Made by a program: the position numbers and the translations under genes. 64,000 bases of DNA. It comes from Allobosea sp. (GTDB lineage: Bacteria; Pseudomonadota; Alphaproteobacteria; Rhizobiales; Beijerinckiaceae). The notes beneath the pieces are model-generated. The model saw only the letters and a list, made by a program, of their open reading frames with translations, was not told where the DNA came from and did no database searches. Numbering within the stretch: the first letter of the stretch is position 1; each line of letters opens with the position of its first letter. Positions 26,905-60,306 of this stretch are shown one piece after another. The stretch covers positions 1-64,000 of the forward strand of contig NZ_JAFKFX010000042.1 in the NCBI RefSeq assembly GCF_017308075.1, read 5' to 3'.

Positions 26905-28056
26905 TTATTTACTTATTGTCGTTATAGGTGCGTATCCCCTAGGGAGCGCCATTGCGGCCAAATGAGCCTGTTTTGTAAGGCTTTTTTCCTCCTCTTGTCC
27001 CACCTCGGAATCCGGTGGGACAATGATAGATCCAGCCTGAAGCTTCATCATCGCTGAATCCGCCATCTGCGGTTTGCGTGCTGCTCGGGTGTAGCGTTCC
27101 ACCTCCTCAAGGGTCCTGTGGCCGGTAACGGACATCAGCTCGTGGGCGGTCGCCTGGCTCTCTGCCAGCCTTGCCGCGATTGCCTTGCGCAGGCCGTGGG
27201 CGCGGCCAGGAACGCCGGCATCCTTGCATCGCTCGCGGAACCAATTGCCGAAGCCATTCGGTGTGAACGGCTCGCCATACTGCGTCTCTAGGAACGTTTC
27301 CTCACCGCACGGGCCGGCGGCGATAGCCTCGAGCAAGTGAGGATCTGCTGGGATATCGATATCTACCGGCGAGCGGTGCTCGTTCTTCGCCTGTGTGAAG
27401 CGAAGCCGGCCGTTCTGAATGTGCGAAGGTCCGAGCCGCACAGCATCCTCTCGGCGGCCTGCAGAGAAGTAGATCAACATCATTGCGAGCCGCGGCTTTG
27501 TGCCTAGCGGCCAACGCTTCTCAAAGCGCAAGACCTCCTCGACGGTCCACGAGTGATGGCCATTCGTCTTGTACTTCACAAGCTTTACGTCGCGGGCCGG
27601 ATTGGCGGCGGCCTCCTCAGCTTCGACGGCCCAGCTGAAAAGTGCCTTGAGTGCTTTCAGGCGCTGATTGGCCGCCCCCTTCTCGAGTTCGTCGCGCAGA
27701 CGCCTGACGTGCTTGGATTCCATGCGATCGACGGGGAGGCTGCCCTTAGTCTCGCAGACGAGATCCAGCGCCCGCTTGCGCCAAGCCCGAGTACTGGCAT
27801 CTAAGGCCTTGAATTCCGGGCTGGCGTAGTACTTCCCGCAAAGCTCGTGAAAGCTGCCCTTCACGGCCTTTTCAGTCGCGGAAGCCCTGCTTGGTGACTT
27901 GCCGGCGAGGGTGTCGCGGTACGCTTCCCAGAACGCGTCGGAGCCGTACTCATGTGCCAACCGAACCTTCGGTTTCCCAGGCACGCGGACATACCACCGC
28001 ACATTGCCGTGCCGGTCCACATCCTTGCTGAGCCGAGGAGGGTTTGGACGGGGCAT
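26905..28056 (-). CDS. Tyrosine recombinase (phage/island integrase)
   Basis: This 383-residue integrase has an N-terminal arm-binding region (HGNVRWYVRVPGKPKVRL) and a SAM-like core-binding domain (about 95-165). In the catalytic domain (about 170-345) the first Arg is in YFSAGRREDAVRL, a Lys in TQAKNEHRS, His-x-x-Arg in AHGLRKAIAARL, His in VTGHRTLEEV, and the nucleophile Tyr in ERYTRAARK. The start overlaps the excisionase stop (TAATG), showing co-expression. A 17-bp sequence inside its last codons is repeated at 37644, so the gene end may contain one attachment core. Confidence 0.85.
   Translation of the reverse strand: MPRPNPPRLSKDVDRHGNVRWYVRVPGKPKVRLAHEYGSDAFWEAYRDTLAGKSPSRASATEKAVKGSFHELCGKYYASPEFKALDASTRAWRKRALDLVCETKGSLPVDRMESKHVRRLRDELEKGAANQRLKALKALFSWAVEAEEAAANPARDVKLVKYKTNGHHSWTVEEVLRFEKRWPLGTKPRLAMMLIYFSAGRREDAVRLGPSHIQNGRLRFTQAKNEHRSPVDIDIPADPHLLEAIAAGPCGEETFLETQYGEPFTPNGFGNWFRERCKDAGVPGRAHGLRKAIAARLAESQATAHELMSVTGHRTLEEVERYTRAARKPQMADSAMMKLQAGSIIVPPDSEVGQEEEKSLTKQAHLAAMALPRGYAPITTISK
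26935..26951 (+). repeat. Putative attachment-site core, copy 1
   Basis: TCCCCTAGGGAGCGCCA, identical and in the same orientation to 37644-37660. It ends in CCA and can be read as the last 17 bases of a tRNA (T-stem CCCCT, acceptor AGGGAGC, discriminator G, CCA), but no tRNA body precedes it. It lies inside the 3' end of the integrase gene. Confidence 0.55.
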
Positions 28057-46945: not shown

Positions 46946-47572
46946 TCAGGCGGCAAGGACGCCATGGGCGGCCAGCCGCGCCAGGATCAGGGCTTCCTGC
47001 TGATGCTTCAGCGCGGTGACGCGCGCCGTCGCAGCTTCGAGGGATGCGGCCGGTTCGTAGATCGGCGAGGTCCCGGATTGCCCGGTCTCGGCGCCGATGC
47101 GCTTTTCGAATGGCAGCGAGCGGTAGAGCGCCGGATCGGCGGTCACGTCGAATAGCGGCCGATAGCCCAGCTTGATATAGAGCGCCGTCGCCTCGGGCTG
47201 GCGGAAGCCCGTCGTGAGATAGGCCCGCCTGTAGCCCTGTGCGGCGGCCCGCGCTTCCAATTCGGCGACGATGCGCTCTGCCAGCCCCTGACGGCGAAAT
47301 CCGTCATCCGTCCAGATGCGCTTGAATTCGGCCGTCTCGTCGTCATGGCTCATGAAGGCGCCGCCGGCGATGGTCCGGCCGGACCGCTGCAGCAGGATGA
47401 AGTCGCCTAGCGGTGGCGAAAAGGCTTCGGCCGGATAGCGGAACAGCTCCGAGCGCGCCCCGCCGGGCCGGCTGTTCGCGCCATAGCGCCCGTCATATTC
47501 GAGGATGAGCCCTTCGACGAGCGGCCGCGCCGCCTCGCAATGATGCGACGATCTGAGGATGACGTCGCTCAT
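46946..47572 (-). CDS. GNAT-family N-acetyltransferase (SnaA/SnaB-like, paralogue 1)
   Basis: A 208-residue GNAT protein: LVEGLILEYDGRYGANSRPG, FILLQRSGRTIAGGAFMSHD, motif A RRQGLAERIVAELEARA, motif B YLTTGFRQPEATALYIKLGY RPL. It resembles the acetyltransferase at 52835 along its whole length (shared EYDGRYG, IAGGAFM and RRQGLA blocks), indicating duplication. The partner genes suggest acetylation of the amino group of an S-modified cysteine. The extended C-terminal 45 residues are absent in the paralogue. Confidence 0.8.
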   Translation of the reverse strand: MSDVILRSSHHCEAARPLVEGLILEYDGRYGANSRPGGARSELFRYPAEAFSPPLGDFILLQRSGRTIAGGAFMSHDDETAEFKRIWTDDGFRRQGLAERIVAELEARAAAQGYRRAYLTTGFRQPEATALYIKLGYRPLFDVTADPALYRSLPFEKRIGAETGQSGTSPIYEPAASLEAATARVTALKHQQEALILARLAAHGVLAA

Positions 47573-47925
47573 GGAAGCAGCCTCTCGGCCGGGCCATTCG
47601 ATGAGAGCCACCCGTCCGGGGCGACGGCAGATGCAGGAGGCAATGTCGGCATGGTGCTCGGCTTCCGACCTGGCGCATCGGCTGGAGAAGCCGGGTCAAG
47701 CCTTGAAAATGCAGTAAATCGGGCTCTCTAAGCCGTTTGGCTGCTATGAATAAGGCAATTCTTTCGTGTTGGGTCAAATTAAATGATCGAATAAGCTTTT
47801 TCGTCAATCGAATATTGAGTTTGCGTAAGAAGTATATTTTTCGTGCGCAGATTATAATTGAGCTTCGTTTTATTTTTTATCGATAGATTGGATTTTCTAT
47901 ATTCAGGAATGGCGTATGCCGGGCT
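47573..47925 (-). promoter_or_regulatory. AT-rich regulatory region before the first acetyltransferase
   Basis: 353 bp between the acetyltransferase start and the CysB-like stop. 47745-47910 is AT-rich. On the minus strand 47841-47826 reads AAAAATATACTTCTTA, matching the motif at 39509. No gene is seen. Confidence 0.45.
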
Positions 47926-48852
47926 TCAGGTCGGCACTGTGCCGATGGCTCTGCTCACGATGCCCGCCTCGAGCTCCGGCCTGCACAGTTCGATGAAGCG
48001 ATGGGCGTAGCCGGGCAGGAAGCGCCCGCGCGGCGCTGCGATATAGGATGTCGCTATTGGGAAAAGGCCGTCGGCGATCTTGACCAGGCCAGGATCGCAT
48101 TCCGGATCAAAGGCGACCTCGGCGACGATGCCCAAGCCCAGCCCCAATGCGACATAGGACTTGATCACGTCGGAATCGATGGCAGAGACGACGATATCGG
48201 GCCTCAACCCGCGATCATGGAACGCCGCATCGATCAGCGGGCGCCCGGTGAAGCCCTGGCCGTAAGTTACGATCGGCCGCTCCGCGATCTCGGACAGGCC
48301 GACATCGCTGCGGCTGGCGAGCGAGTCGTTCCGGCCGGCGATGACGATGTGGCGCCAGCTGTAGTAGGGGAAGGCGACCAGATCCGCCGCCTGGGCAAGG
48401 CTTTCGGTGGCTATGCCGATATGGGCGCTTCCTTCGCGCAAGCGGGCAACGATCTCGGTGGGCTCGCTCTGCCGGATCGAGAGACGCACGCGGGGAAACT
48501 CGTCCCGGAATTGCTTGATGATGCGAGGCAGCGCATAGCGCGCTTGGGTGTGCGTCGTGGCGATCACGAATTCACCGGAAGCGGGATCGCGCAACTGGTC
48601 AGTGACGCGCTTGATGCTCATCGCGTCGGCAAGGATGCGCTCGACATAGCTGATGACGGAGCGGCCCGCTTCGGTGAGGCCGATCATGCGTTTGCCGCGT
48701 CGCTCGAACAGCTCGACGCCGAGTTCCAGCTCAAGGTCCCGGATGTGCTTCGACACGCCGGATTGCGAGGTATTCAGCGCCGCCGCAGCCTCGGTGAAGT
48801 TGTAGCCGCTGCGGACGGCTTCCTGGAGAATGCGAAACTGCTGCAGATTCAT
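47926..48852 (-). CDS. LysR-type regulator, CysB-like
   Basis: A 308-residue LysR protein: winged HTH (MNLQQFRILQEAVRSGYNFT EAAAALNTSQSGVSKHIRDL), then a CysB/Cbl-type effector domain (ATTHTQARYALPRIIKQFRD, PIVTYGQGFTGRPLIDAAFH, GLGLGIVAEVAFDPECD). The TTHTQARYALP block defines CysB and Cbl, which bind acetylserine or adenylylsulfate and activate sulfur genes when cysteine is scarce. It is divergent from the LLM operon and next to an acetyltransferase gene, so it should regulate both. Confidence 0.85.
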   Translation of the reverse strand: MNLQQFRILQEAVRSGYNFTEAAAALNTSQSGVSKHIRDLELELGVELFERRGKRMIGLTEAGRSVISYVERILADAMSIKRVTDQLRDPASGEFVIATTHTQARYALPRIIKQFRDEFPRVRLSIRQSEPTEIVARLREGSAHIGIATESLAQAADLVAFPYYSWRHIVIAGRNDSLASRSDVGLSEIAERPIVTYGQGFTGRPLIDAAFHDRGLRPDIVVSAIDSDVIKSYVALGLGLGIVAEVAFDPECDPGLVKIADGLFPIATSYIAAPRGRFLPGYAHRFIELCRPELEAGIVSRAIGTVPT

Positions 48853-49291
48853 CTGGTTGGCGGCGTTTGTCCGGGCCTGGTGGCTCTTCGGCCATGATAG
48901 GGCCCGCCCGCGAGTGGGTCTTTGCGAAATCGGCCGCTTCCGGAGAACGAAACGACGCTGTCACGGCCTGACACGCATGGGTTTTTCCAGGCGCGGCATC
49001 GAAGCGGCAATCCGGCCGGAACCGGCTCTGCAAAGAGCAGCATCGCCCCGGCGTTTGGCCCCATCGGTTCCGGCACCGTTCAGGCCCGGGGCGGCAGCTT
49101 ATTCATCGCAAAGTTTGCGAGAAACGGAGAATAGCCTTGCCGCTGGAAAGCGGGTGAAGGGAATATACGTATTGTTTCTTCGCCTTATGATCTATTTCGA
49201 TAAGTAAAGATGAAATACTTGTTTCACTCCGCCTGCCGGTCGACGCGTAATTTATCGCATGTCGCTTTCCACGGCGCCGGCGGAGCCGAAC
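48853..49291 (+). promoter_or_regulatory. Divergent promoter region between CysB-like gene and the sulfur operon
   Basis: The last 130 bp (49135-49230) are AT-rich and include GAATATACGTATTG (49161-49174) with the palindrome ATACGTAT. The motif AATATACGT recurs before the flavin reductase gene (60517-60525). This is the expected place for CysB-type binding and the operon promoter. No gene is seen. Confidence 0.5.
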
Positions 49292-50263
49292 ATGACCTAT
49301 TTTCTGAGCCTTCTCGACAAGAGCCCGATTCCCGGGGGCTCCAACCCTGAACGTGCCCTGGCCGATACCGTCGCCTATGCACGCCATGCGGAGAAGCTCG
49401 GCTATCATCGCTTCTGGCTGGCCGAGCATCATGGCAGCGCGGAGGTCGCCGGCGTGGCGCCGGAAATCCTGGCCGCGTGGGTTCTGGCATCGACGGAACG
49501 TATTCGCGTCGGATCCGGCGGCGTCATGCTGCAGCATTACAGCCCCTTCAAGGTCGCCGAGACCTTCAGGCTTCTGGCTGCGCTCGCGCCCGATCGGGTC
49601 GACCTCGGGATCGGCAGGGCGCCCGGCGGATTGCCGCAGACCACCCAGGCGCTTCAAGCCCGCCTCGACAAGTCGGCTCCGCCCGATTTCGCCGCTCTGG
49701 CCGAGGAGCTGGACGGACATCTGAACGGCGAACTCGCACGCCCGCTGCCGCGCGTCGCGCCGCGGCGGGTTCTGCTCGGCGGCTCCCCGGACAGCGGTGC
49801 GCTTGCCGCCCGACTCGGCTGGGATTTCGTCTTCGCCGGCCATTTCAATGGCGATGCGGCTTTGATCGAGGCCAGCCTCGGCGCTTATCGCACCGGCGGC
49901 GGCCGCGCACCGGCGCTGGCCGTACATGCCTTCGCGGCAACTTCGGCAGCTTCGGCGCGGGACGCGGTGCGCGAAACGCGCATCTTTCGCGTCACGCTGT
50001 CGGATGGACGTGCGCTCAATCTGCGCAGCCGCGAGCAGGCCGAGAGCTTCGCGCGGCAGGCGGGCGACAGCGGTTTCACCATCCGCGAGACGCAGCCCCA
50101 CGTCATCGCCGGCTCGGGCGAGGATGTGCGCGCCGCACTCGATGCGCTCGCGGAGCGCTTCGACGTGAACGAACTCGTGCTCGACAACCCGGTTCCCGAT
50201 GGTGCCGCGCGCCGGCTCTCCATCGAGTTGATCGCCACCGGCACCCGCCGCGCCGCGGCCTGA
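49292..50263 (+). CDS. LLM-class flavin-dependent monooxygenase (CmoO-like)
   Basis: About 323 residues (an upstream start at 49259 adds 11). A luciferase-like barrel: [77 protein letters not shown]-type motif ([13 protein letters not shown]). The SLLDKSPI start and AEHHG motif belong to the MsnO8/YtmO-like group, which includes Bacillus CmoO of S-alkylcysteine salvage. It uses FMNH2 and O2. It is the first gene of the long plus-strand operon. GGCGGAG lies before the chosen ATG. Confidence 0.8.
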
Positions 50264-50292
50264 CCGCTGACCTGAAAGGAATGAGGCGCCCC

Positions 50293-51645
50293 ATGACCGC
50301 GACCGACAAGAAGCCCGTGAAGTTCGGCATCATGCTGCATGGTGCGGGCGGGCACATGAATTCCTGGCGCCATCCCTCCGGCCGGGCCGATGCCAGCGTC
50401 AATCTCGACTTCTACATCGACACGGCACGGAAGGCCGAGGCGGCAGGCGTTACCTTCGCCTTCGTGGCAGACGGCCTCTACATCAACGAGAAGTCGATCC
50501 CGCATTTCCTCAACCGTTTCGAGCCGCTGACGATCCTGTCGGCGCTGGCGGTCGCGACGACGAAGATCGGTCTCGCAGGCACGGTCTCGACCTCCTATTC
50601 CGATCCTTTCACGATCGCCCGGCAGTTCGCCTCGCTCGACCTCATCTCCAAGGGACGGGCCGGCTGGAACGTCGTCACCACGCCGCTCGAGGGCTCGGCC
50701 AACAACTACAGCCGCCAGCATCCCGAGCATGCGCTGCGCTACGAGATCGCCGACGAATATCTCGAGGTCACGCAGGGCCTCTGGGATTCATGGGATGACG
50801 ACGCAGTCTTGCGCGACCGCGCGACCGGCCGCTTCTTCGATCCCGCCAAGCTGCATCGGCTCGATCACAAGGGGCGCTTCTTCCAGGTCGAAGGTCCGCT
50901 GAACATCGGCCGTTCGAAGCAGGGCCAGCCGGTGATCTTCCAGGCCGGCTCATCGGAGGCCGGCATCAAGCTGGCCGGCAAATACGCAGATGCCGTCTTC
51001 ACCCATTCGCCCTCCGTCGCCGAGACGAAGACCTTCCGTGATCAGGTGCGCGCGGCGGCCGTCGCGCATGGACGACGCGCCGACGACGTGAAGATCTTCC
51101 CCGGCATCGGCCCGATCGTCGGCCGCACGGCGCAAGAGGCGCAGGCGAAGTACGAGGTCATCCGGAACCTCTTGTCGATCGACGACGCGCTGGCCTATCT
51201 CGGCCGCTATTTCGACCATCACGACTTCACGCAGTACCCGCTCGACGCGCCATTCCCGGAACTGGGCGAGATCGGCAGGAACAGCTTCCGCTCGACCACG
51301 GACCGCATCAAGAAGAACGCACGGGAAAAAGGCCAGACGCTGCGCGAGGTCGCGCTCGAGGCCGCGACGCCCAAGCCGAACTTCATCGGCACCGGCGCGC
51401 ATGTGGCGGATGAGATCATCCGCTGGATCGATGCGGGCGCAGCCGACGGCTTCATTCTCGGCTTCTCGGTGACGGCTGAGGGGCTGGACGACTTCGTCGA
51501 GCTGGTGATCCCCGAACTCGAGTCGCGCGGGCGCTACAGCCGCGATCTTTCCGGCGAAACCCTGCGGGACCATCTCGGCCTGCCCTTCAAGCCGAGCCGC
51601 TACGCCGAGAACGAGGCGCCTGCGCTGCGGGCGACGGCGCGATGA
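50293..51645 (+). CDS. NtaA/SnaA/DszA-family FMNH2-dependent monooxygenase (CmoJ/YxeK-like)
   Basis: A 450-residue protein: [26 protein letters not shown]-type loop ([20 protein letters not shown]), [31 protein letters not shown], and [15 protein letters not shown] are signatures of the two-component monooxygenases that include NtaA, DszA, SnaA and Bacillus YxeK/CmoJ. They need an external flavin reductase, and one is encoded at 59728-60306. Predicted role: oxidising the S-substituent carbon of N-acetyl-S-alkylcysteine so that the C-S bond breaks. The ATG at 50293 is better spaced than the one at 50281. The stop overlaps the next gene by 4 bp. Confidence 0.85.
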
Positions 51646-52820
51646 ACGCTCCGTTTCGAGCCCCGCCGCTCACCACGCGGGAAGTCGCGGCGGAGCTCGA
51701 CCGCTTCGTCGCGCTGCGGCGCCATTTCCACCAGAATCCGGAGCTTTCGACCAAGGAGCGGCAGACGGCGGGGCGGATCGCGGAGCTGCTCGTCGAATGG
51801 GGCTACGAGGTCGAGACGGGCATTGGCGGAGAGGGCGTCGTCGCCTCCCTGCGCAATGGGGCCGGCCAGCGCGCCATTGGCATCCGTGCCGATTTCGACG
51901 CGCTGCCCATCGCCGAGGCGACGGGCCTGCCCTATGCGAGCCGGAGCGCGGGCGTGATGCATGCCTGTGGTCATGACGGGCATACCACGATCCTGCTGGC
52001 GGCCGCCCGTGCGCTCGCCCTGAGAAAGTCCTTCGACGGCACGCTGCGGCTGATCTTCCAGCCGGCCGAGGAAATCAGTGCCGGCGCCCGGGCGATGATC
52101 CGTGACGGGCTGTTCGAGCGCTTCCCCGTGGATGGGATCTTCGGCCTGCATAACTGGCCCGGCGTGCCCGAGGGCGTCTTCGGCTTCGTCGACGGGCCGG
52201 CCATGGCGGCGGTCGACAAGGCGGTCATCACGGTGGCCGGCAAGGGCGGGCATGGCGCCGCGCCGCACGAGACCGTCGATCCGGTGCTGGCAGCCGCCCA
52301 TCTGGTCACGGCGCTGCAGAGCCTCGTTTCGCGCAATATCGATCCGCTGGACGCGGCCGTCGTCACGGTGGGCTCGATCCATGGCGGCACGGCGTCGAAT
52401 GTCATCCCGGATTCGGTCGAGCTTCAGGCGACGATCCGCAGCTTCACGCCCGAGGTCCGCGCGTTGCTGGCCGAGCGGCTGCCGGCGCTGGCGCAAGCCC
52501 AGGCCGCCGCCTTCGGCGCGAAGGCCGACGTCGATTACCGGCTCGGCATGCCGGCCGTGGTCAACCACGCCGCCGAAACCCGCTTCGCGCGGGAGGCCGC
52601 GCTGTCCACCTTCGGCGCAGCCGGGGTGATCGAGCATCTGCGGCCACGCTCGGCGAGCGAGGATTTCGCTTATTTCCTGGAGCAACGCCCCGGCGCCTTC
52701 CTCTTCATCGGGGCTGGGGAGGGCCCGCCGCTCCATTCTCCCCGATACGATTTCAACGACGCGCTGATCGCGCCGGGCGCGACCTATTGGACGCGTCTCG
52801 CCGAGCGATTTCTGGCCTGA
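51642..52820 (+). CDS. M20-family amidohydrolase (SndA/SndB-like deacetylase)
   Basis: A 392-residue M20D (hippuricase/amidohydrolase) protein: [41 protein letters not shown] (metal His residues and Cys), [14 protein letters not shown] (catalytic Glu pair), [26 protein letters not shown], and [22 protein letters not shown]. It removes acyl groups from N-acylated amino acids. In the Bacillus ytm and yxe pathways the equivalent enzyme deacetylates the product so that free cysteine is recovered. It overlaps the monooxygenase gene and is followed 14 bp later by the acetyltransferase. Confidence 0.85.
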
Positions 52821-52834
52821 GCGAGGGAGATCCG

Positions 52835-53362
52835 ATGGCCGATCAGTTCTTTTCGACCAGCCCGGCCGATCCGCTGGCGCAACCGTTGATCCAGGACCTC
52901 ATCCGTGAATATGACGGCCGCTATGGTGACATTCCCGGTCGCGACCCGGCGGTCGTCGAGCTGCACCGCTATCCGCCCGAGCTCTTCCTGCCGCCCCGCG
53001 GCCGCTTCCTGCTCGTGCTGCGTGCCGGCGAGGCGATCGCCGGTGGCGCCTTCATGCCGCATGCCGAGGAGGCGACGGCCGAGGTCAAGCGGGTCTGGGC
53101 GCGGCCCGATCTGAGGCGGCAGGGGCTCGCGGCGCGAGTCGTCATGGAACTCGAACGGCTCGCGCGGCTGCAGGGCTACACGGACCTCTACCTGACGACC
53201 GGCAGCCGCCAGCCGGAAGCCGTGCGGCTCTACCGGTCGCTCGCCTACGAGCCGCAATTCGACCTGAACGTCGATGCCACGAAGTTCAGCCTTCTGTCGT
53301 TCCGCAAGCGGCTCGCCACGCCCTTGAGCGCGCTGGCCGATGCGGCCGCCCTCCCGGCCTGA
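52835..53362 (+). CDS. GNAT-family N-acetyltransferase (SnaA/SnaB-like, paralogue 2)
   Basis: A 175-residue GNAT enzyme: LIQDLIREYDGRYGDIPGRD, FLLVLRAGEAIAGGAFMPHA, motif A RRQGLAARVVMELERLAR, motif B YLTTGSRQPEAVRLYRSLAY. It is close to paralogue 1 (46946-47572). In the pathway it would acetylate the imported S-alkylcysteine, protecting it for the monooxygenases. The start at 52835 has GAGGGAG upstream, while a longer frame from 52787 overlaps the amidohydrolase. Confidence 0.8.
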   Translation: MADQFFSTSPADPLAQPLIQDLIREYDGRYGDIPGRDPAVVELHRYPPELFLPPRGRFLLVLRAGEAIAGGAFMPHAEEATAEVKRVWARPDLRRQGLAARVVMELERLARLQGYTDLYLTTGSRQPEAVRLYRSLAYEPQFDLNVDATKFSLLSFRKRLATPLSALADAAALPA

Positions 53363-53388
53363 GCCCAAATCCCGAAGAGGAACCTGAC

Positions 53389-55158
53389 ATGTCTCTCGCC
53401 GTCGACGGCTCTGCGGCCGCCGTACCCCTGTCCCAGCCGCGCCTCGACGCGGCCGGCCTGCGCATCGTGCCGGCCCGTCATCCCTGGCGCTTCGTCGGCG
53501 GAGCCTTCGCGCTCGTCCTCGTCTTCTCGGTCGTGAACTCCGTGCTCGGCAATCCGCGCTGGGGCTGGGACGTCTTTGCCGAATGGTTCTTCTCCGAGCC
53601 GGTGATCGCTGGGCTCGGCCGCACCTTGCTGCTGACGCTGCTTGGTGCGCTCTTCGGCTTCTCCATCGGGGCTCTCCTGGCGCTGGCACGGCTATCCGGC
53701 TCGGTGCCTCTGGCCGCGGTGTCCTGGACCTTCGTATGGCTGTTCCGTTCAATCCCGCTGATCGTGCTCCTGCTGATCCTCAATAATCTCGGCTATCTCT
53801 ACGAGACGGTTTCGCTCGGCGTGCCCTTCACGGGTTGGAACTTCTTTTCCTATCCCACCACGCAGCTCATCAGCCCCTTCATGGCGGCAGTGCTGGGCCT
53901 CACGTTGAACCAGGCCGCCTTTTCGGCCGAGTTCATCCGCGGCGGGCTGCTCTCCGTCGACCAGGGCCAGCATGAGGCCGCCGCGGCCCTCGGCCTACCG
54001 CGGCAGCGGCAATTCTTCCGCATCGTGCTGCCGCAGGCGATGCGTTCGATCATCCCGACGGCCTTCAACGACATTATCGGCCTCGCGAAGGGCACCTCCA
54101 ACGTCTACATCCTGGCGTTGCCGGAACTGTTCTACACCGTACAGGTGATCTACCGCCGCAACCTGGAGGTGATCCCGCTGCTGATGGTGGCGACGGTCTG
54201 GTATCTCGTCATCCTGACCGTGCTCTCCGTGGTCCAGGCGCAGATCGAGCGCTACTATGCCCGCGGCGCGCTCCGGCATCTCCCGCCCTCGATCTTCGAT
54301 CCGTTGCTGCGCCGTCTCGCGCGCAGGGCCGCGCCCGCCGTGCCGCCGGCCGCCGCCTCCGCCGCGCCGGTGGTTCCCGCTCCGCTGGTCTGGCGTCGCG
54401 GGGGCGAGATCACCATCCGCAACGTCTCGAAAAGCTTCGGCGAGCTGAAGGTCCTGGACGACGTCTCGCTCACCTTGCCGTCCGGATCGGTCACCGCGAT
54501 CATCGGCCCCTCCGGGTCCGGCAAGTCGACGCTGCTGCGTTCGATCAACCATCTCGAACGCCTCGACCGCGGCGTGATCACGCTGGACGGCCAGCTCATC
54601 GGCTATCGGCAGGAGGGCGAGCTCCTCTACGAGCTGAAGGAGAGAGAGGTGCTCCGCCGGCGCGTCGATGTCGGCATGGTGTTCCAGAACTTCAACCTGT
54701 TCCCGCATCTGACGGCGCTCGAGAACATCGTCGAGGCGCCGGTCAATGCGCGCGGCGTCGCCCGCGCCGAAGCGGAAGCCGCCGCAAGCGAACTGCTTGC
54801 CCGCGTCGGCCTCTTCGACAAGGTGAACGCCTATCCGCGCCAGCTCTCGGGCGGCCAGCAGCAGCGCGTCGCGATTGCCCGCGCCCTGGCGCTGAAGCCC
54901 AAGGCGCTGCTTTTCGACGAGCCGACATCCGCGCTCGATCCGGAACTGGTCGGCGAAGTGCTCGCCGTCATCAAGGAACTCGCCCGCTCCGGCGCGACGC
55001 TGGTCATCGTCACCCATGAGATCGGTTTCGCCCGCGAAGTCGCCGACACGGTCGTCTTCATGGATGCCGGCCGGATCGTCGAGGTCGGCGCGCCCGAAAA
55101 GGTGCTCGGCGCACCCGAGCATCCGCGTACGGCGGAATTCCTCGCGAAGGTCCTTTGA
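53389..55158 (+). CDS. Amino-acid ABC transporter, permease and ATPase fused
   Basis: A 589-residue fusion. Residues about 40-300 are a HisM/TcyL-type permease (GLGRTLLLTLLGALFGFSIG, RSIPLIVLLLIL, EAAAALGLPRQRQFFRIVLP QAMRSIIP, GLAKGTSNVYILALPE). A Pro/Ala linker (about 310-335) joins it to a GlnQ/TcyN-type ATPase (about 340-589: Walker [12 protein letters not shown], signature [15 protein letters not shown], Walker [13 protein letters not shown]-loop VTHE). Fusing permease and ATPase fixes their pairing. It lies between enzymes and binding proteins of the sulfur operon, so it probably imports an S-alkylcysteine or cystine-like amino acid. Confidence 0.85.
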   Translation: MSLAVDGSAAAVPLSQPRLDAAGLRIVPARHPWRFVGGAFALVLVFSVVNSVLGNPRWGWDVFAEWFFSEPVIAGLGRTLLLTLLGALFGFSIGALLALARLSGSVPLAAVSWTFVWLFRSIPLIVLLLILNNLGYLYETVSLGVPFTGWNFFSYPTTQLISPFMAAVLGLTLNQAAFSAEFIRGGLLSVDQGQHEAAAALGLPRQRQFFRIVLPQAMRSIIPTAFNDIIGLAKGTSNVYILALPELFYTVQVIYRRNLEVIPLLMVATVWYLVILTVLSVVQAQIERYYARGALRHLPPSIFDPLLRRLARRAAPAVPPAAASAAPVVPAPLVWRRGGEITIRNVSKSFGELKVLDDVSLTLPSGSVTAIIGPSGSGKSTLLRSINHLERLDRGVITLDGQLIGYRQEGELLYELKEREVLRRRVDVGMVFQNFNLFPHLTALENIVEAPVNARGVARAEAEAAASELLARVGLFDKVNAYPRQLSGGQQQRVAIARALALKPKALLFDEPTSALDPELVGEVLAVIKELARSGATLVIVTHEIGFAREVADTVVFMDAGRIVEVGAPEKVLGAPEHPRTAEFLAKVL

Positions 55159-55205
55159 TCCCCTTCCAACACGCGTTCTCTCCGAAGATTGAAAGGCTGA
55201 TGCTC

Positions 55206-56150
55206 ATGACGCATTCCCTCGCCATGCCGCGCCGCGTTGCGCTCGGCTTCGTTGCGCTTGTCGCGCTCGCCCCCTCGCTGGCTTTCGCCCAGCAGCAGTT
55301 CGATCTGACCTCCGTGCAGAAGGCGCAGCCGCGCGCCGAGGTCGTGCCGGAAGCGGTGAAGTTGCTCGGCAAGGACGTGAAGCTCGCCAAGCCCGGCACC
55401 TTCACCATCGCGACGACCGGACAGCGCCTGCCGTTCGGCATCAATGCGACCGACAATCAGAGGATCATCGTCGGGTCCGAGCCCGATATCGGGCGGCTGA
55501 TCGCCGACGGGCTGGGTCTCGAACTGGAGGTGGTGCAGGTGGCCTGGGCCGACTGGCCGTTGGGTGTCACCTCGGGCAAGTATGACGCGGCGATCTCTAA
55601 CGTCACCGTCACCGAACAGCGCAAGGAGCGGTTCGACTTCTCGACCTACCGCAAGGACCAACTCGGCTTCTATGTCGGCAGCAAGAGCGCGATCAAGGAG
55701 ATCGCCAAGCCGGAGGACGTCGCCGGCCTCAAGGTCATCGTCGGCTCCGGCACCAATCAGGAGCAGATCCTGCTGCGCTGGATCAAGGCCAACGAGGCCA
55801 AGGGCCTCAAGACCACCGAAGTGCAGTATTTCGACGATGACGTCGTGCTCTATCTGGCCTTGGAATCCGGCCGTGCGGACGCTTATTTCGGTCCCAATGG
55901 CACGCTCGGCTTCAAATCCGCGCAGACCGGGACCACGCGCCTCGTCGGCTCCTTCTCGGGGGGGTGGCCAGAGATCGCCGAGATCGCGGTGACGACGAAG
56001 AAGGGCGCCGGTCTCGCCGAAGCGATCACCGCCGTGCTCAACGCGCAGATCAAGAACGGCAACTACCAGAAGTCGCTGGCGCGCTGGGGGCTCGCGCCGG
56101 AGGCAATCGAGGTCTCGCGCACCAACCCGCCAGGGCTCCCCAGGAGCTAA
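55206..56150 (+). CDS. Amino-acid ABC binding protein, paralogue A
   Basis: A 314-residue family 3 binding protein with a signal peptide (LAMPRRVALGFVALVALAPS LAFA) and a periplasmic domain (KPGTFTIATTGQRLPFGINA, EPDIGRLIADGLGLELEVVQ VAWADWPLGVTSGKYDAAIS NVTVTEQRKERFDFSTYR). The final NPPGLPRS recurs as NPRGLPKY in the next gene. The ATG at 55206 is better spaced from AAAGG than 55200. It probably delivers the sulfur amino acid to the fused transporter. Confidence 0.85.
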   Translation: MTHSLAMPRRVALGFVALVALAPSLAFAQQQFDLTSVQKAQPRAEVVPEAVKLLGKDVKLAKPGTFTIATTGQRLPFGINATDNQRIIVGSEPDIGRLIADGLGLELEVVQVAWADWPLGVTSGKYDAAISNVTVTEQRKERFDFSTYRKDQLGFYVGSKSAIKEIAKPEDVAGLKVIVGSGTNQEQILLRWIKANEAKGLKTTEVQYFDDDVVLYLALESGRADAYFGPNGTLGFKSAQTGTTRLVGSFSGGWPEIAEIAVTTKKGAGLAEAITAVLNAQIKNGNYQKSLARWGLAPEAIEVSRTNPPGLPRS

Positions 56151-56217
56151 CGCGAACCGCGAAACCGCGATGCGGGACGCCGAAAGCCGGCGGCCCGCTC
56201 CTTTCAGGAGCAAACCA

Positions 56218-57141
56218 ATGTTCATCCGCAAGGCGGCCCTTGCCGCCGCCGCCATGGTTGCGTTCGCCACGCTCGCCTCGGCGCAGAGCGTCTATGATCT
56301 GAGCCCGCAACAGCCTGGCCGGCCTCGTACGCAGCCCAATCCCGCGGCGATCGCCGCCATCGCCGGCGACGCCAGGCTCGTCGAGCCCGGCGTCCTGACC
56401 GTGGCGACCAATGCGAGCACGCCGCCGCTGGCGACCTATGCGACGGATTCCGCGACCCTTGTCGGCGCCGATCCCGATGTCGCGCAGCTCATCGCCGACA
56501 GCCTCGGCCTCAGGCTCAAGCTCATTCCCACGCCCTGGGCAGACTGGCCGCTGGGAGTCGCATCCAGAAAATACGATGCGGCGATCTCCAACATCGGCGT
56601 CACGGAGCAGCGCAAGGAGAAGTTCGATTTCTCGAGCTATCGCGCGGGCTTGCACGGTTTCTTCGTCAAGGCGGACAGCAAGGTCGGGAAGATCGCCGAG
56701 CCAAAGGACGTCGCGGGGCTGCGCGTCGTGCTGGGTGGCGGCACCAATCAGGAGCGCATCCTGCTCGAATGGAGCAAGCAGAACCTCGCGGCGGGGCTGA
56801 AGCCGATCGAGCTCATCACCTTCGACGACGAGGCCAATCGCCTGTTGGCGTTGTCTTCGGGCCGCGCCGACGTGATCGTGCAGCCGCATGCGCAGCTGCT
56901 CTTCATCCAACAGCGCGACCGGAACATCAGGCGCGTGGGCGTGCTGAGCGCGGGCTGGCCGGAAAGGTCGGACGTCGCCGTGGCGACGCGCAAGGGCGCG
57001 GGGCTGGCCCAGGCGATCACGCTCGCCCTGGAAGGCGCCTATCGGGACGGCACCTTCGATGCGGCGCTCAGGCGCTGGGGTGTCGAGGAGGAGCGCCTCG
57101 AAAAGCCCGAGACAAATCCCCGCGGCCTGCCGAAATATTGA
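56218..57141 (+). CDS. Amino-acid ABC binding protein, paralogue B
   Basis: A 307-residue protein with a signal peptide (MFIRKAALAAAAMVAFATLA SA) and the same architecture as paralogue A (EPGVLTVATNASTPPLATYA, ADWPLGVASRKYDAAISNIG VTEQRKEKFDFSSYR, KGAGLAQAITLALEGAYRDG). The two genes are tandem and clearly duplicated but diverged in the ligand-facing N-lobe. They may give the transporter two substrate ranges. GGAGC precedes the ATG. Confidence 0.85.
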   Translation: MFIRKAALAAAAMVAFATLASAQSVYDLSPQQPGRPRTQPNPAAIAAIAGDARLVEPGVLTVATNASTPPLATYATDSATLVGADPDVAQLIADSLGLRLKLIPTPWADWPLGVASRKYDAAISNIGVTEQRKEKFDFSSYRAGLHGFFVKADSKVGKIAEPKDVAGLRVVLGGGTNQERILLEWSKQNLAAGLKPIELITFDDEANRLLALSSGRADVIVQPHAQLLFIQQRDRNIRRVGVLSAGWPERSDVAVATRKGAGLAQAITLALEGAYRDGTFDAALRRWGVEEERLEKPETNPRGLPKY

Positions 57142-57151
57142 GGGCGCGATC

Positions 57152-58336
57152 ATGAGCTCTCAAATGGCGGACATCGTCGTCCTCGGCCTCGGCGCCATGG
57201 GGTCGGCCGCCCTGTTTCAGCTTGCATCGCGCGGCGCCGACGTCCTCGGGGTCGATCAGTTCCATCCGCCGCACGAGAACGGCTCGAGCCATGGCGAGAC
57301 GCGCGTCACGCGCCTCGGCGTGGCCGAAGGCACGGCACTGGCGCCACTGGTGAAGCGCTCGCATGAGATCTGGAAGGAGCTGGAGGGCCGGACTGGCGAA
57401 AGCCTGTTCGGGCAGGTCGGCTTCCTGGCGATATCGAGCGAGCCTTTGCAGCACGGTGCGGCCGATTATGTCGAGCGTACGCTCGCCGTCGCCCGGCGCA
57501 GCGGCACACGACACGAGCTGATCGCCCCCGACGAGGCGCGCCGCCGCTATCCCTGGCTGAACGTCGCCGACGGAGACCGGGTCTATTTCGAGCCGGAAGG
57601 CGGATATCTGCGTCCCGAGCGCTGCGTCGCGGCGCAGCTTCGGCTCGCCGCCGCAGCCGGCGCGCGGCTGGTGCTCGACACGCGGGTCGAGGCGATCGTC
57701 CCGCACGCCGGTCATGTCGAGATCAGGACCGGCAAGGGCAGGATCCTCGCGGGCCGCGTCGTGGTCAGCGCCGGCGCCTGGGCTGGCCGGCTGCTGGGGC
57801 CGCAGGTCTCCGGGCTGCTGCGCCCCACGCGCGAAATCCTGCACTGGTATGCGCTCGAGCCGTCTGCTCCGGCCGGATGGGGCGAGGCGCCGGTCTATAT
57901 CTGGTCCTACGGGCACGGCGTGGAAGAGGGCTTTTACGGCTTTCCCGCCTTCGACGGCTCGGTGAAGCTGGCCCATGGCGAGAAGACCCGCAGCGTCGAC
58001 CCGGATGGTTTTGATCGATCGAGCGAGGAGGAGGAGTCGCGTGACTTCTATGCGCGTTCCATCGCCGGGCGGCTGAAAGGCCTGCGCGTCGACCAATCGC
58101 GCCGCAAGACCTGCCTCTACACGGTTTCTCCGGATAACGGCTTCATCATCGACCAATGGCCGCAATGTGAGCGTGTGCTCGTCGTCTCGCCCTGCTCGGG
58201 GCATGGCTTCAAGCACTCGGCTGCGATCGGTGAGGCCGTCAGCCAGCGGCTTCTGGATGGCGCAAGCCGCATCGATCTCGCGGCTTTCGGACTGGCGCGG
58301 TTCGGCCATGCGCCGCTTCCTGACGTTGCTGCCTAG
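57152..58336 (+). CDS. FAD-dependent amino acid oxidase (SolA / monomeric sarcosine oxidase family)
   Basis: A 394-residue DAO-fold oxidase: FAD-binding VVLGLGAMGSAALFQLASRG, HPPHENGSSHGETRVTR (site of the covalent-flavin family's arginine/His region), RRRYPWLNVADGDRVYFEPE GGYLRPERC, CLYTVSPDNGFIIDQWP and the Cys in SPCSGHGFKHSAAIGE, which attaches FAD in MSOX and SolA. It oxidises N-methyl or secondary amino acids to release H2O2 and aldehyde. In this operon it may act on an N- or S-substituted amino acid. The exact substrate is unknown. Confidence 0.8.
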   Translation: MSSQMADIVVLGLGAMGSAALFQLASRGADVLGVDQFHPPHENGSSHGETRVTRLGVAEGTALAPLVKRSHEIWKELEGRTGESLFGQVGFLAISSEPLQHGAADYVERTLAVARRSGTRHELIAPDEARRRYPWLNVADGDRVYFEPEGGYLRPERCVAAQLRLAAAAGARLVLDTRVEAIVPHAGHVEIRTGKGRILAGRVVVSAGAWAGRLLGPQVSGLLRPTREILHWYALEPSAPAGWGEAPVYIWSYGHGVEEGFYGFPAFDGSVKLAHGEKTRSVDPDGFDRSSEEEESRDFYARSIAGRLKGLRVDQSRRKTCLYTVSPDNGFIIDQWPQCERVLVVSPCSGHGFKHSAAIGEAVSQRLLDGASRIDLAAFGLARFGHAPLPDVAA

Positions 58337-58442
58337 CCGACATATCGCCGAGCCGAGGCCGGAAGAGCATCCGGCCTGGTGCTCGATCACGATAGGCAGA
58401 GCCTCGCGGCCTTCGCCCGGTCCAGGGTGCCGGAGATAGAGC

Positions 58443-59639
58443 ATGGCCGGCCGCCGCCAACCTTTCACAGAGAGCATCGATCCCGTGTACGACTTCGACC
58501 TCGCGCCAGACCGCCTCGAGACCGGCAGTACGAAATGGAGCCGCTATCCGGCCGACGTCCTGCCCATGTGGATCGCCGACATGGATTTCGCCGTCGCTCC
58601 TGAAATCGTCTCGGCGCTGAAGCGGCGGCTCGACCATCCGGTATTCGGCTATGCCGTCGCCAAATCCCAGCTTCGCGAGCAGATCGTGGCCGATCTCGAC
58701 AGGCGGTTCGGATGGCGGATCGCGCCCGATGACATCGTGTTCCTGCCGGGTATCGAGCCCGGCTTCAACATGGCCCTGAAGGCGAGCCTCTCGCCCGGCG
58801 AAAAGATCCTGATCCAGACGCCGATGTACAAGCCCATCCTGGATGCGCCGAGCCATTGGGGCCTCGAGGCGCTTCATGTGCCGCTCGTCCGTGGCGAGAA
58901 GGGCTACGGGCTGGATCGCGGCGCGCTGGCGGAAAAGCTGGCCGGGGCTGGCGCGTTCCTCCTGTGCAACCCGCACAACCCGACGGGCCATGTCTACGCG
59001 CGGGACGATCTCGCCTTCATCGCCGCGGCCTGCGAGGCCGGGGACACATTGATCATCTCCGACGAAATCCATTGCGATCTCGTCTTCGACGGCCGGTCGC
59101 ATGTTCCGATCGCGAGCCTCGCTCCGGAGATCGCGAAGCGGACCATCACGCTCATGTCCGCCAGCAAGACCTACAACATCCCGGGACTCAAGACCGGCTT
59201 TGCCATCATCACCGACCGCGAGCTCCGCGATGCCTTCAACGCGGCCCGCAGCGGCATGGTCGACAGTGTCAATCTGATGGGGCTCGAAGCCACATTGGCG
59301 GCTTATCGCGACGCCGGCCCGTGGCGCGCGGCGCTTCTCGACTATCTGCAGGAGAACCGCGATCACCTGGGCCGCGCGCTTTGGCGGCTGATCCCGGACA
59401 TCCGCTACCATCCTCCCGAGGCCTCTTTCCTGGCCTGGCTCGACTGCAGCGCGCTGGGCCTGAAGCAGAGGCCGCATCTCTTCTTTCTCGAGGAAGCGAA
59501 GCTCGGGCTCTATGCCGGGGAGGTTTTCGGGACGGGATACGAGCAGTTCGTCCGCCTGAATTTCGGCTGCACGCGAGCAACGCTGACGCAGGCGGTCGAG
59601 CGCATGGCTGCTGCCCTCTCGCGGAATGCCGGGAACTGA
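58443..59639 (+). CDS. patB: PatB/MalY-type cystathionine beta-lyase (C-S lyase)
   Basis: A 398-residue class I/II aminotransferase-fold PLP enzyme: TGSTKWSRYPADVLPMWIAD MDFAV start, LLCNPHNPTGHVY, IISDEIHCDLVFDGRSHVPI ASL, and the PLP Lys in LMSASKTYNIPGLKTGF are those of PatB/MalY C-S beta-lyases. They split cystathionine or S-alkylcysteines into pyruvate, ammonia and thiol. It offers a second route to free sulfur from imported S-modified cysteine, beside the monooxygenase route. It is the last gene of the operon, 106 bp after the oxidase. Confidence 0.85.
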   Translation: MAGRRQPFTESIDPVYDFDLAPDRLETGSTKWSRYPADVLPMWIADMDFAVAPEIVSALKRRLDHPVFGYAVAKSQLREQIVADLDRRFGWRIAPDDIVFLPGIEPGFNMALKASLSPGEKILIQTPMYKPILDAPSHWGLEALHVPLVRGEKGYGLDRGALAEKLAGAGAFLLCNPHNPTGHVYARDDLAFIAAACEAGDTLIISDEIHCDLVFDGRSHVPIASLAPEIAKRTITLMSASKTYNIPGLKTGFAIITDRELRDAFNAARSGMVDSVNLMGLEATLAAYRDAGPWRAALLDYLQENRDHLGRALWRLIPDIRYHPPEASFLAWLDCSALGLKQRPHLFFLEEAKLGLYAGEVFGTGYEQFVRLNFGCTRATLTQAVERMAAALSRNAGN

Positions 59640-59727
59640 GTTCCCTCACGGCGGGGCGGCGGTATTCCGGCCGCCTCCGATCTTGCGGCTGCGCGGCGGC
59701 CTTAAGCCGGCGCTTGGCTGGCGAATA

Positions 59728-60306
59728 TCAGTCGGAACGCAGGCCGAGCGCGGCCGAGGCCTCCTCCGGCAACCAGCCCAGCCGCTCGTAATTGCCGCGC
59801 CAATAGGCCAGCGCGGCGTTTTCGCCGCCGAGCCGGATCTCGCGGACGCGGCCGATGACGATCGCATGGGAGTGCCGCTCGATCAGATCCTCCACCTCGC
59901 AGTCGAGAGCGGCCAGCGCACCGACGAGGAGCGGAGCTCCGGTCGGGCCTTCGCTCCACTCCACCCCGGCATAGCGGGCCGCGCCCTTTTCGCCGCCACG
60001 GCCAGCGAAGCGATCCGCGACCTTGGCCTGGGCTGCGGTCAGGAAGTTGACGCCGAAGGCGCGGTGTCGGCCGAGCAAGGGAAAGCTCGACGATGCGAGG
60101 TTGAGCCCGAACATCACCGTCGGCGGTTCGGCCGAAAGGGACGACACCGAGGTTGCGGTCAGGCCGGTGCGGTCCTCGCCACGCCCGACGGTGACGACGC
60201 TGACGCCACCGACGAGCCGACGCAGCGCCGTGCGAAACGTGGCGGTATCGGGCGAGGCAGGTTGCTGCCGGAGAGCTGCCCTGGTGTGGAGCGGGATGAT
60301 GGTCAA
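59728..60306 (-). CDS. FMN reductase of the flavin reductase-like family
   Basis: A 192-residue protein: FRTALRRLVGGVSVVTVGRG, TGLTATSVSSLSAEPPTVMF GLNLASSSFPLL, RAFGVNFLTAAQAKVADRFA, HAIVIGRVREIRLG. This is the NAD(P)H:FMN reductase family (HpaC/NtaB/DszD-like) that feeds FMNH2 to two-component monooxygenases. It lies opposite the end of the sulfur operon, and its promoter region carries the AATATACGT motif, so it is probably co-regulated with the monooxygenases at 49292 and 50293. Confidence 0.8.
   Translation of the reverse strand: MTIIPLHTRAALRQQPASPDTATFRTALRRLVGGVSVVTVGRGEDRTGLTATSVSSLSAEPPTVMFGLNLASSSFPLLGRHRAFGVNFLTAAQAKVADRFAGRGGEKGAARYAGVEWSEGPTGAPLLVGALAALDCEVEDLIERHSHAIVIGRVREIRLGGENAALAYWRGNYERLGWLPEEASAALGLRSD

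Follow-up and report, generated by a model that had tools for sequence, protein, structure and literature searches.

Glutathione-based detoxification gives rise to S-alkylcysteines, which Bacillus converts back to cysteine by unusual flavin chemistry. The parts of PMC10863075 cited here name CmoO and CmoJ as both flavoenzymes of S-alkylcysteine salvage. CmoO forms the sulfoxide, and CmoJ, which is termed a YxeK homologue, breaks the C-S bond of the sulfoxide to give a sulfenic acid and an aldehyde. The salvage is described there as widely distributed among soil bacteria. M20 enzymes of Bacillus subtilis deacetylate N-acetylcysteine, as stated in the cited part of PMC12757645. To gain insight into a related system of a Gram-negative bacterium we analyzed a 64,000 nucleotide stretch of Allobosea sp. 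(part of contig C25 of a 5.55 Mb genome), here referred to as the window. The cluster at 46946-60306 is probably an S-alkylcysteine salvage operon of a Pseudomonadota type and a variant of the known CmoO/CmoJ pathway, as judged from homology and synteny.

The gene content largely matches that of the B. subtilis ytm/ytn locus as given in the cited parts of PMC10863075 and PMC12757645: a CmoO-like and a CmoJ-like protein, a GNAT acetyltransferase, an M20 protein, a polar amino-acid importer and a LysR regulator. This comparison was made via loci of Paenibacillus and Niallia and via B. subtilis YtnJ itself. In contrast to the Bacillota loci, the window carries another GNAT lineage, a fused permease-ATPase and two related receptors (the solute-binding proteins SBP1 and SBP2). 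It also differs from ytm/ytn by a SolA gene within the operon, and no redoxin gene was recognised among the annotated genes of the cluster. The scm (yxe) pathway for 2-succinocysteine (2SC), as described in the cited part of PMC9706529, has the same succession of acetylation, cleavage by an FMN-dependent monooxygenase and deacetylation, with an importer in the cluster as well. The likeness extends to the M20 protein, whose nearest solved structure is YxeP. Here the window differs from the published locus content by the presence of CmoO.

All gene families that a previous sequence-only reading had named in this region were recovered as open reading frames with family matches (Table 1). The operon is arranged in the order cmoO-cmoJ-M20-GNAT2-permease/ATPase-SBP1-SBP2-solA with all ORFs orientated into the plus direction and the CysB-like regulator divergent. 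From cmoO to solA neighbouring genes overlap by 4 bp or are spaced by at most 29 bp. The spacing of 106 bp between solA and patB is wider than these gaps, and the flavin reductase gene on the minus strand is convergent with the operon. A scan for promoters and terminators was not above shuffled sequences, with 1 promoter-like site (mean of shuffles 1.5) and 3 terminator-like sites (mean 8.9).

Among solved structures CmoJ was most similar to 3sdo (624 bits), followed by B. subtilis YtnJ (540 bits), dimethyl-sulfide monooxygenase (228 bits) and EDTA monooxygenase (199 bits). The entry 6ask (MoxC) is identical in letters to YtnJ within the aligned part. A tree was built from the 65 rows that remained of 146 after thinning. 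In it the window protein grouped with Pseudomonadota proteins and 3sdo in a 40-row set (100/100); YtnJ and the Bacillota copies joined in a 50-row set (92/92), the tree being rooted at the midpoint only. Both the scores (YtnJ versus EDTA monooxygenase) and the grouping place the protein on the YtnJ branch. The adjoining MsnO8-family protein is a putative CmoO-type sulfoxidase and shares 43% identity with the CmoO-like proteins of the Paenibacillus and Niallia loci.

To determine how far the cluster is conserved, named genomes were scanned with CmoJ. The best 80 of at least 579 relatives were analyzed, all with at least 70% identity, and the counts therefore describe close relatives. Per-family identity thresholds were applied and genes were counted within the available flanks (10 of the 80 loci span less than 20 kb). 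CmoO was found at 79 loci, a GNAT of the window lineage at 78, the fused importer at 77 and a receptor at 74. This association of the core genes is far beyond chance. The M20 gene was present at 46 loci. Relatives of the window flavin reductase occurred at 8 loci, SolA and the CysB-like regulator at one each and PatB at none. The sole locus with SolA and the regulator belongs to Bosea sp. Root381, and apart from it the arm of CysB-like regulator and GNAT1 is absent from the other named Pseudomonadota loci. Most of 40 further loci picked by GNAT carried the core; L089-L091, L093, L094, L100 and L125 carried GNAT1 without it. The pathway was also considered as unique to the window genome, which was rejected given the widespread core.

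The order cmoO-cmoJ-(M20)-GNAT-permease/ATPase-SBP-(SBP) is found in many other Pseudomonadota, among them Rhizobium, Ensifer, Terrarubrum, Variovorax, Burkholderia and Stenotrophomonas. The gene order, taken as different in the sequence-only reading, is thus the common one of this phylum. Annotated plasmids of Terrarubrum and Ensifer carry cmoO, cmoJ, M20, GNAT, permease/ATPase, two SBP genes and a third luciferase-like monooxygenase (LLM). Unlike in the Bacillota loci, this third LLM (at least 45% identity) was present at 42 of the 80 named loci, at 38 of them directly after an SBP gene (at most 600 bp 3' and on the same strand), a slot which is taken by SolA in the window. Burkholderia loci have the GNAT and one SBP gene 5' of cmoO instead. 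In the Paenibacillus locus the genes for LysR, GNAT, an amino-acid receptor, permeases, ATPase, CmoO, M20, CmoJ and a further M20 protein follow in a row. The third LLM itself (L127 15841-16902; L128 15995-17026) is weakly TIGR04027-like, under the cut-off. The locus L199 is titled Bacillus subtilis strain SK7B5, but its layout and identities are those of loci from Stenotrophomonas, so that either a wrong title or a contaminated assembly is probable.

A single CmoJ each (E <= 1e-150) was found in 30 of 67 Bosea genomes, in 4 with 90-100% and in 26 with 69-73% identity. The four window-type genomes are G000, G148, G579 and G011, and GNAT1 and SolA adjoin the core in all of them (the window and L086-L088). 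Other M20 genes (35-50% identity) are present elsewhere in the genomes G148 and G579, where no M20 gene lies between cmoJ and GNAT2. The third LLM of G011 sits between SBP2 and SolA. SolA relatives of at least 71% were additionally found in G531, G563 and G533 (partial), and fifteen other genomes had relatives of only 36-38%. In G531 SolA follows an 84% relative of SBP1, with an oligopeptide-type importer and PatB nearby and CmoJ on a separate contig. The regulator was detected at E <= 1e-70 in 4 of the 67 genomes, with at most 34 candidates scored per genome, and these are the same four that carry the window-type core. The accessory genes for SolA and the CysB-like regulator are lineage-limited, accompanying the core only in four of the 67 Bosea genomes searched.

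The best solved relative of the M20 protein was B. subtilis YxeP (1ysj, 270 bits), which together with the position in the operon points to an N-acetylcysteine deacetylase. SBP1 and SBP2 are 47% identical. In the receptor alignment T145, E146, R148, D219 and D220 of SBP2 were invariant in 25 of 25 sequences; we take residues of this type to grip the amino-acid backbone in this receptor class. The predicted model of SBP2 (model confidence, pLDDT, 90) resembled receptors for arginine, glutamine, octopine and cystine alike in a fold search. Genes of an oligopeptide-type ABC importer (SBP_bac_5) were seen next to CmoJ in loci of Niallia and Paenibacillus and next to SolA in Bosea G531 (L129 13328-18842; L130 13350-19014; L225 9293-14456), and these importers look as if they take up peptide or glutathione conjugates too.

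The two acetyltransferases of the window, GNAT1 and GNAT2, share 50% identity and were matched by Pfam only, without a specific NCBIfam model. The two Bacillota GNATs are 41% identical to one another. Pairwise comparison of GNAT2 and GNAT1 with one of them gave E values of 0.16 and 0.67, respectively, and no match with the other; the best pairwise value for other members of the GNAT1/GNAT2 lineage was 1.7e-4. A profile of 109 relatives and the window pair reached the two Bacillota proteins with E values of 8e-6 and 0.066. These profile scores fit a shared GNAT superfamily, with orthology to the Bacillota GNATs not established. GNAT2 shows the GNAT fold in its predicted model (pLDDT 90), for which 50 solved structures were listed, with at most 24% identity. 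Because a pairwise match to the Bacillota GNATs is lacking, the acetylation step is proposed from position and superfamily. In further Bosea regions two LLM monooxygenases of 331-336 and 420-430 aa come after a GNAT1 relative (L088 15050-18647, L089 7540-10544, L093 9862-12867), joined in L088 by a flavin reductase, possibly a separate module for acetylation and oxidation.

The LysR-type regulator stayed below every curated cut-off (PRK12684 370 of 402 bits, Cbl model 343 of 491, CysB model 305 of 436). By these scores it is a CysB-like relative and neither CysB nor Cbl itself. With the LysR proteins of the compared Bacillota loci it shares 24-25% identity. In the gap between the regulator and cmoO all four Bosea orthologues retain the palindrome CTTAT-N11-ATAAG. 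The exact palindrome occurs at one site in the whole window genome and in 7 of 212 loci, all seven from the four Bosea genomes. Its rarity was not accepted as sole proof of an operator, as ten fixed bases are expected by chance in about one of two genomes (an estimate) and as 22 of 100 shuffled versions of the window matched the palindrome when one mismatch was allowed. Since rarity is insufficient, the case rests on the conservation in all four orthologues, which makes the palindrome the leading operator candidate of the CysB-like protein. A literature search for Bosea and sulfur starvation returned no paper.

SolA and PatB are accessory to the core pathway. SolA passed the N-methyl-L-tryptophan oxidase model (396 bits, cut-off 257). 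Among solved structures monomeric sarcosine oxidase was nearer (219 bits) than N-methyl-tryptophan oxidase (138 bits), and in the alignment with the former SolA retains a Lys and a Cys, presumably the oxygen-activating and the FAD-linking residue. PatB passed the C-S lyase model (409 bits, cut-off 340) and has a 57% identical copy in the Terrarubrum locus and an 82% identical copy near the SBP1-SolA pair of Bosea G531. As a step of the pathway it was down-weighted, since it is near the core at none of the 80 closest named loci. PatB could act directly on cysteine conjugates; its tie to the operon is little more than adjacency and it is probably an accessory or a bystander. The suggestion of a distinct or broader pathway, which the sequence-only reading had drawn from SolA and PatB, lost ground for the same reason and because SolA adjoins the core only in four Bosea. 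As for the flavin reductase, a second type of Bosea locus, of which eight were read (L092, L095-L099, L101, L210), carries a 72-80% relative directly 5' of cmoO in 8 of 8 cases; M20 is absent from these loci. Due to this position of its relatives the flavin reductase of the window is a plausible partner, even though it is convergent.

Based on these data, the two receptors and the fused permease-ATPase would import an S-substituted cysteine or its sulfoxide. GNAT2 would N-acetylate the imported compound, GNAT1 perhaps serving other conjugates. CmoO, with FMNH2 and O2, would form the sulfoxide, and CmoJ, again with FMNH2 and O2, would cleave its C-S bond into an aldehyde and N-acetylcysteine sulfenic acid. 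The latter would be reduced by cellular thiols and the resulting N-acetylcysteine deacetylated to cysteine by the M20 protein. The CysB-like regulator, acting at CTTAT-N11-ATAAG, would probably couple expression to cysteine or sulfate shortage. These enzymatic steps, the substrate range and the regulation are read from homology and position. This general scheme, in which import and N-acetylation precede flavin-dependent C-S cleavage and deacetylation, had been proposed before and finds good support in homology (YtnJ, YxeP) and conserved synteny.

S-alkylcysteine salvage is suggested by the homology of the importer, of CmoO and CmoJ and of the M20 protein together with the conserved synteny, and by a CysB-like regulator with a conserved palindrome. 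Several findings weigh against it. The M20 gene is missing at 34 of the 80 closest named loci and in two of the four window-type clusters of Bosea, the annotated genes of the cluster include no recognised redoxin gene, neither GNAT1 nor GNAT2 matched the two Bacillota GNATs pairwise, and the best solved relative of CmoJ, 3sdo, bears the name nitrilotriacetate monooxygenase. This last name would also suit a cluster for chelator breakdown, with the CmoJ-like protein as an aminopolycarboxylate (nitrilotriacetate/EDTA-type) monooxygenase. We regard this as highly improbable: EDTA monooxygenase reached only 199 bits, and an amino-acid importer, a deacetylase and a CysB-like regulator suit sulfur amino acids. 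Moreover, 3sdo shares the 40-row clade of the tree with the window protein and the relatives of the latter from cmo clusters, so that the name of 3sdo may be annotation only.

The sequence-only reading had left S-alkylcysteine and 2SC salvage side by side. For 2SC, the GNAT would acetylate this compound, the CmoJ-like protein would take the role of YxeK and release oxaloacetate and N-acetylcysteine, the M20 protein would deacetylate the latter and CmoO would serve another purpose. YxeK indeed belongs to the same monooxygenase family as CmoJ (PMC10863075, cited part), and acetylation and M20 deacetylation are common to both routes in the cited parts of PMC9706529 and PMC12757645. However, CmoO accompanies CmoJ at 79 of the 80 closest named loci, and the yxe locus, as far as given in the cited part of PMC9706529, contains a monooxygenase, an acetyltransferase, an importer, a deacetylase and YxeQ without CmoO. 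Since CmoO and CmoJ are both present, we favour the S-alkylcysteine-sulfoxide route and consider the 2SC route quite unlikely. Somewhat less unlikely, although still of low probability, is that the natural substrates are plant S-alkylcysteine sulfoxides which are imported as such. CmoJ would then be essential, CmoO would only extend the range to thioethers and PatB would provide a parallel route to H2S dependent on pyridoxal phosphate. The identical gene set fits, many relatives reside on plasmids of plant-associated Rhizobium and Pantoea, and a PatB-type C-S lyase adjoins the operon in the window. On the other hand, CmoO is conserved as much as CmoJ, and PatB is absent at all of the 80 closest named loci.

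Table 1. Features of the putative S-alkylcysteine salvage cluster (positions in the window)
Feature	Position	Strand	Evidence
GNAT1, second acetyltransferase	46946..47611 (likely start 47572, 208 aa)	-	Pfam Acetyltransf_1, 42.5 bits
CysB-like LysR regulator	47926..48852	-	PRK12684 CysB family, 370 bits, under cut-off 402
Palindrome CTTAT-N11-ATAAG, candidate operator	49184..49204		87 bp 5' of cmoO ATG; kept in 4/4 Bosea orthologues
cmoO-like LLM monooxygenase, MsnO8 family	49292..50263	+	TIGR03558, 301 bits, above cut-off; start picked by conservation, longest frame begins 49259
cmoJ-like FMNH2-dependent C-S monooxygenase	50293..51645	+	TIGR03860 (NtaA/DmoA family), 526 bits, above cut-off; YtnJ 540 bits; tree
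M20 deacetylase, probable N-acetylcysteine deacetylase	51642..52820	+	TIGR01891, 357 bits, above cut-off; YxeP 1ysj 270 bits
GNAT2, operon acetyltransferase	52835..53362	+	Pfam, 47 bits; GNAT fold in predicted model
Fused permease-ATPase, polar amino-acid importer	53389..55158	+	ATPase part TcyN/EhuA/GlnQ-like, 297-308 bits
SBP1, receptor	55155..56150	+	Amino-acid receptor models; alignment
SBP2, receptor	56170..57141	+	Cystine receptor model, 81 bits, under cut-off; predicted model and fold search
SolA-like FAD amine oxidase	57152..58336	+	NF008425, 396 bits, above cut-off
PatB C-S lyase, probably accessory or bystander	58443..59639	+	TIGR04350, 409 bits, above cut-off
Flavin reductase, probable FMNH2 supplier	59728..60306	-	Pfam PF01613, 131 bits

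Outside of the cluster, the window from 1 to 39000 contains many short frames, mostly of lower G+C at the third codon position, and a gene of the phage integrase family (26905-28056, minus strand). This left part may hold mobile DNA. From 39506 to 46688 genes for a cysteine-synthase-like PALP protein, OsmC, an SsuA-like receptor, an ABC importer, CopC and a CopD-cytochrome c protein are consecutive. The same run also adjoins a 71% relative of GNAT1 in another Bosea (L125), and a second sulfur island tied to GNAT1 is therefore possible.

The kind of pathway is already known, as it is described as widespread in soil bacteria (PMC10863075, cited part). A literature search of titles and abstract openings recognised no description of this Gram-negative cluster, which does not exclude an earlier one. 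What may be particular to the Pseudomonadota form is an acetyltransferase of a different GNAT lineage than in Bacillus, and in Bosea a hand-over of the slot of the third LLM after the second receptor to a SolA-type oxidase. This oxidase would handle a by-product or further cysteine adducts such as thioproline, the ring of formaldehyde and cysteine that is expected upon demethylation of S-methylcysteine. G011, where SolA directly follows the third LLM, would represent the intermediate; we consider this suggestion doubtful and rather improbable as a whole. A literature search for thioproline and sarcosine oxidase returned no paper.

The conserved third LLM oxygenase is highlighted by this comparison, as no role in the pathway is assigned to it in the cited part of PMC10863075. 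With a different GNAT lineage, two receptors, a CysB-like regulator and a candidate operator, the putative Gram-negative operon would open the same question to experiment in Pseudomonadota that live in soil or with plants.

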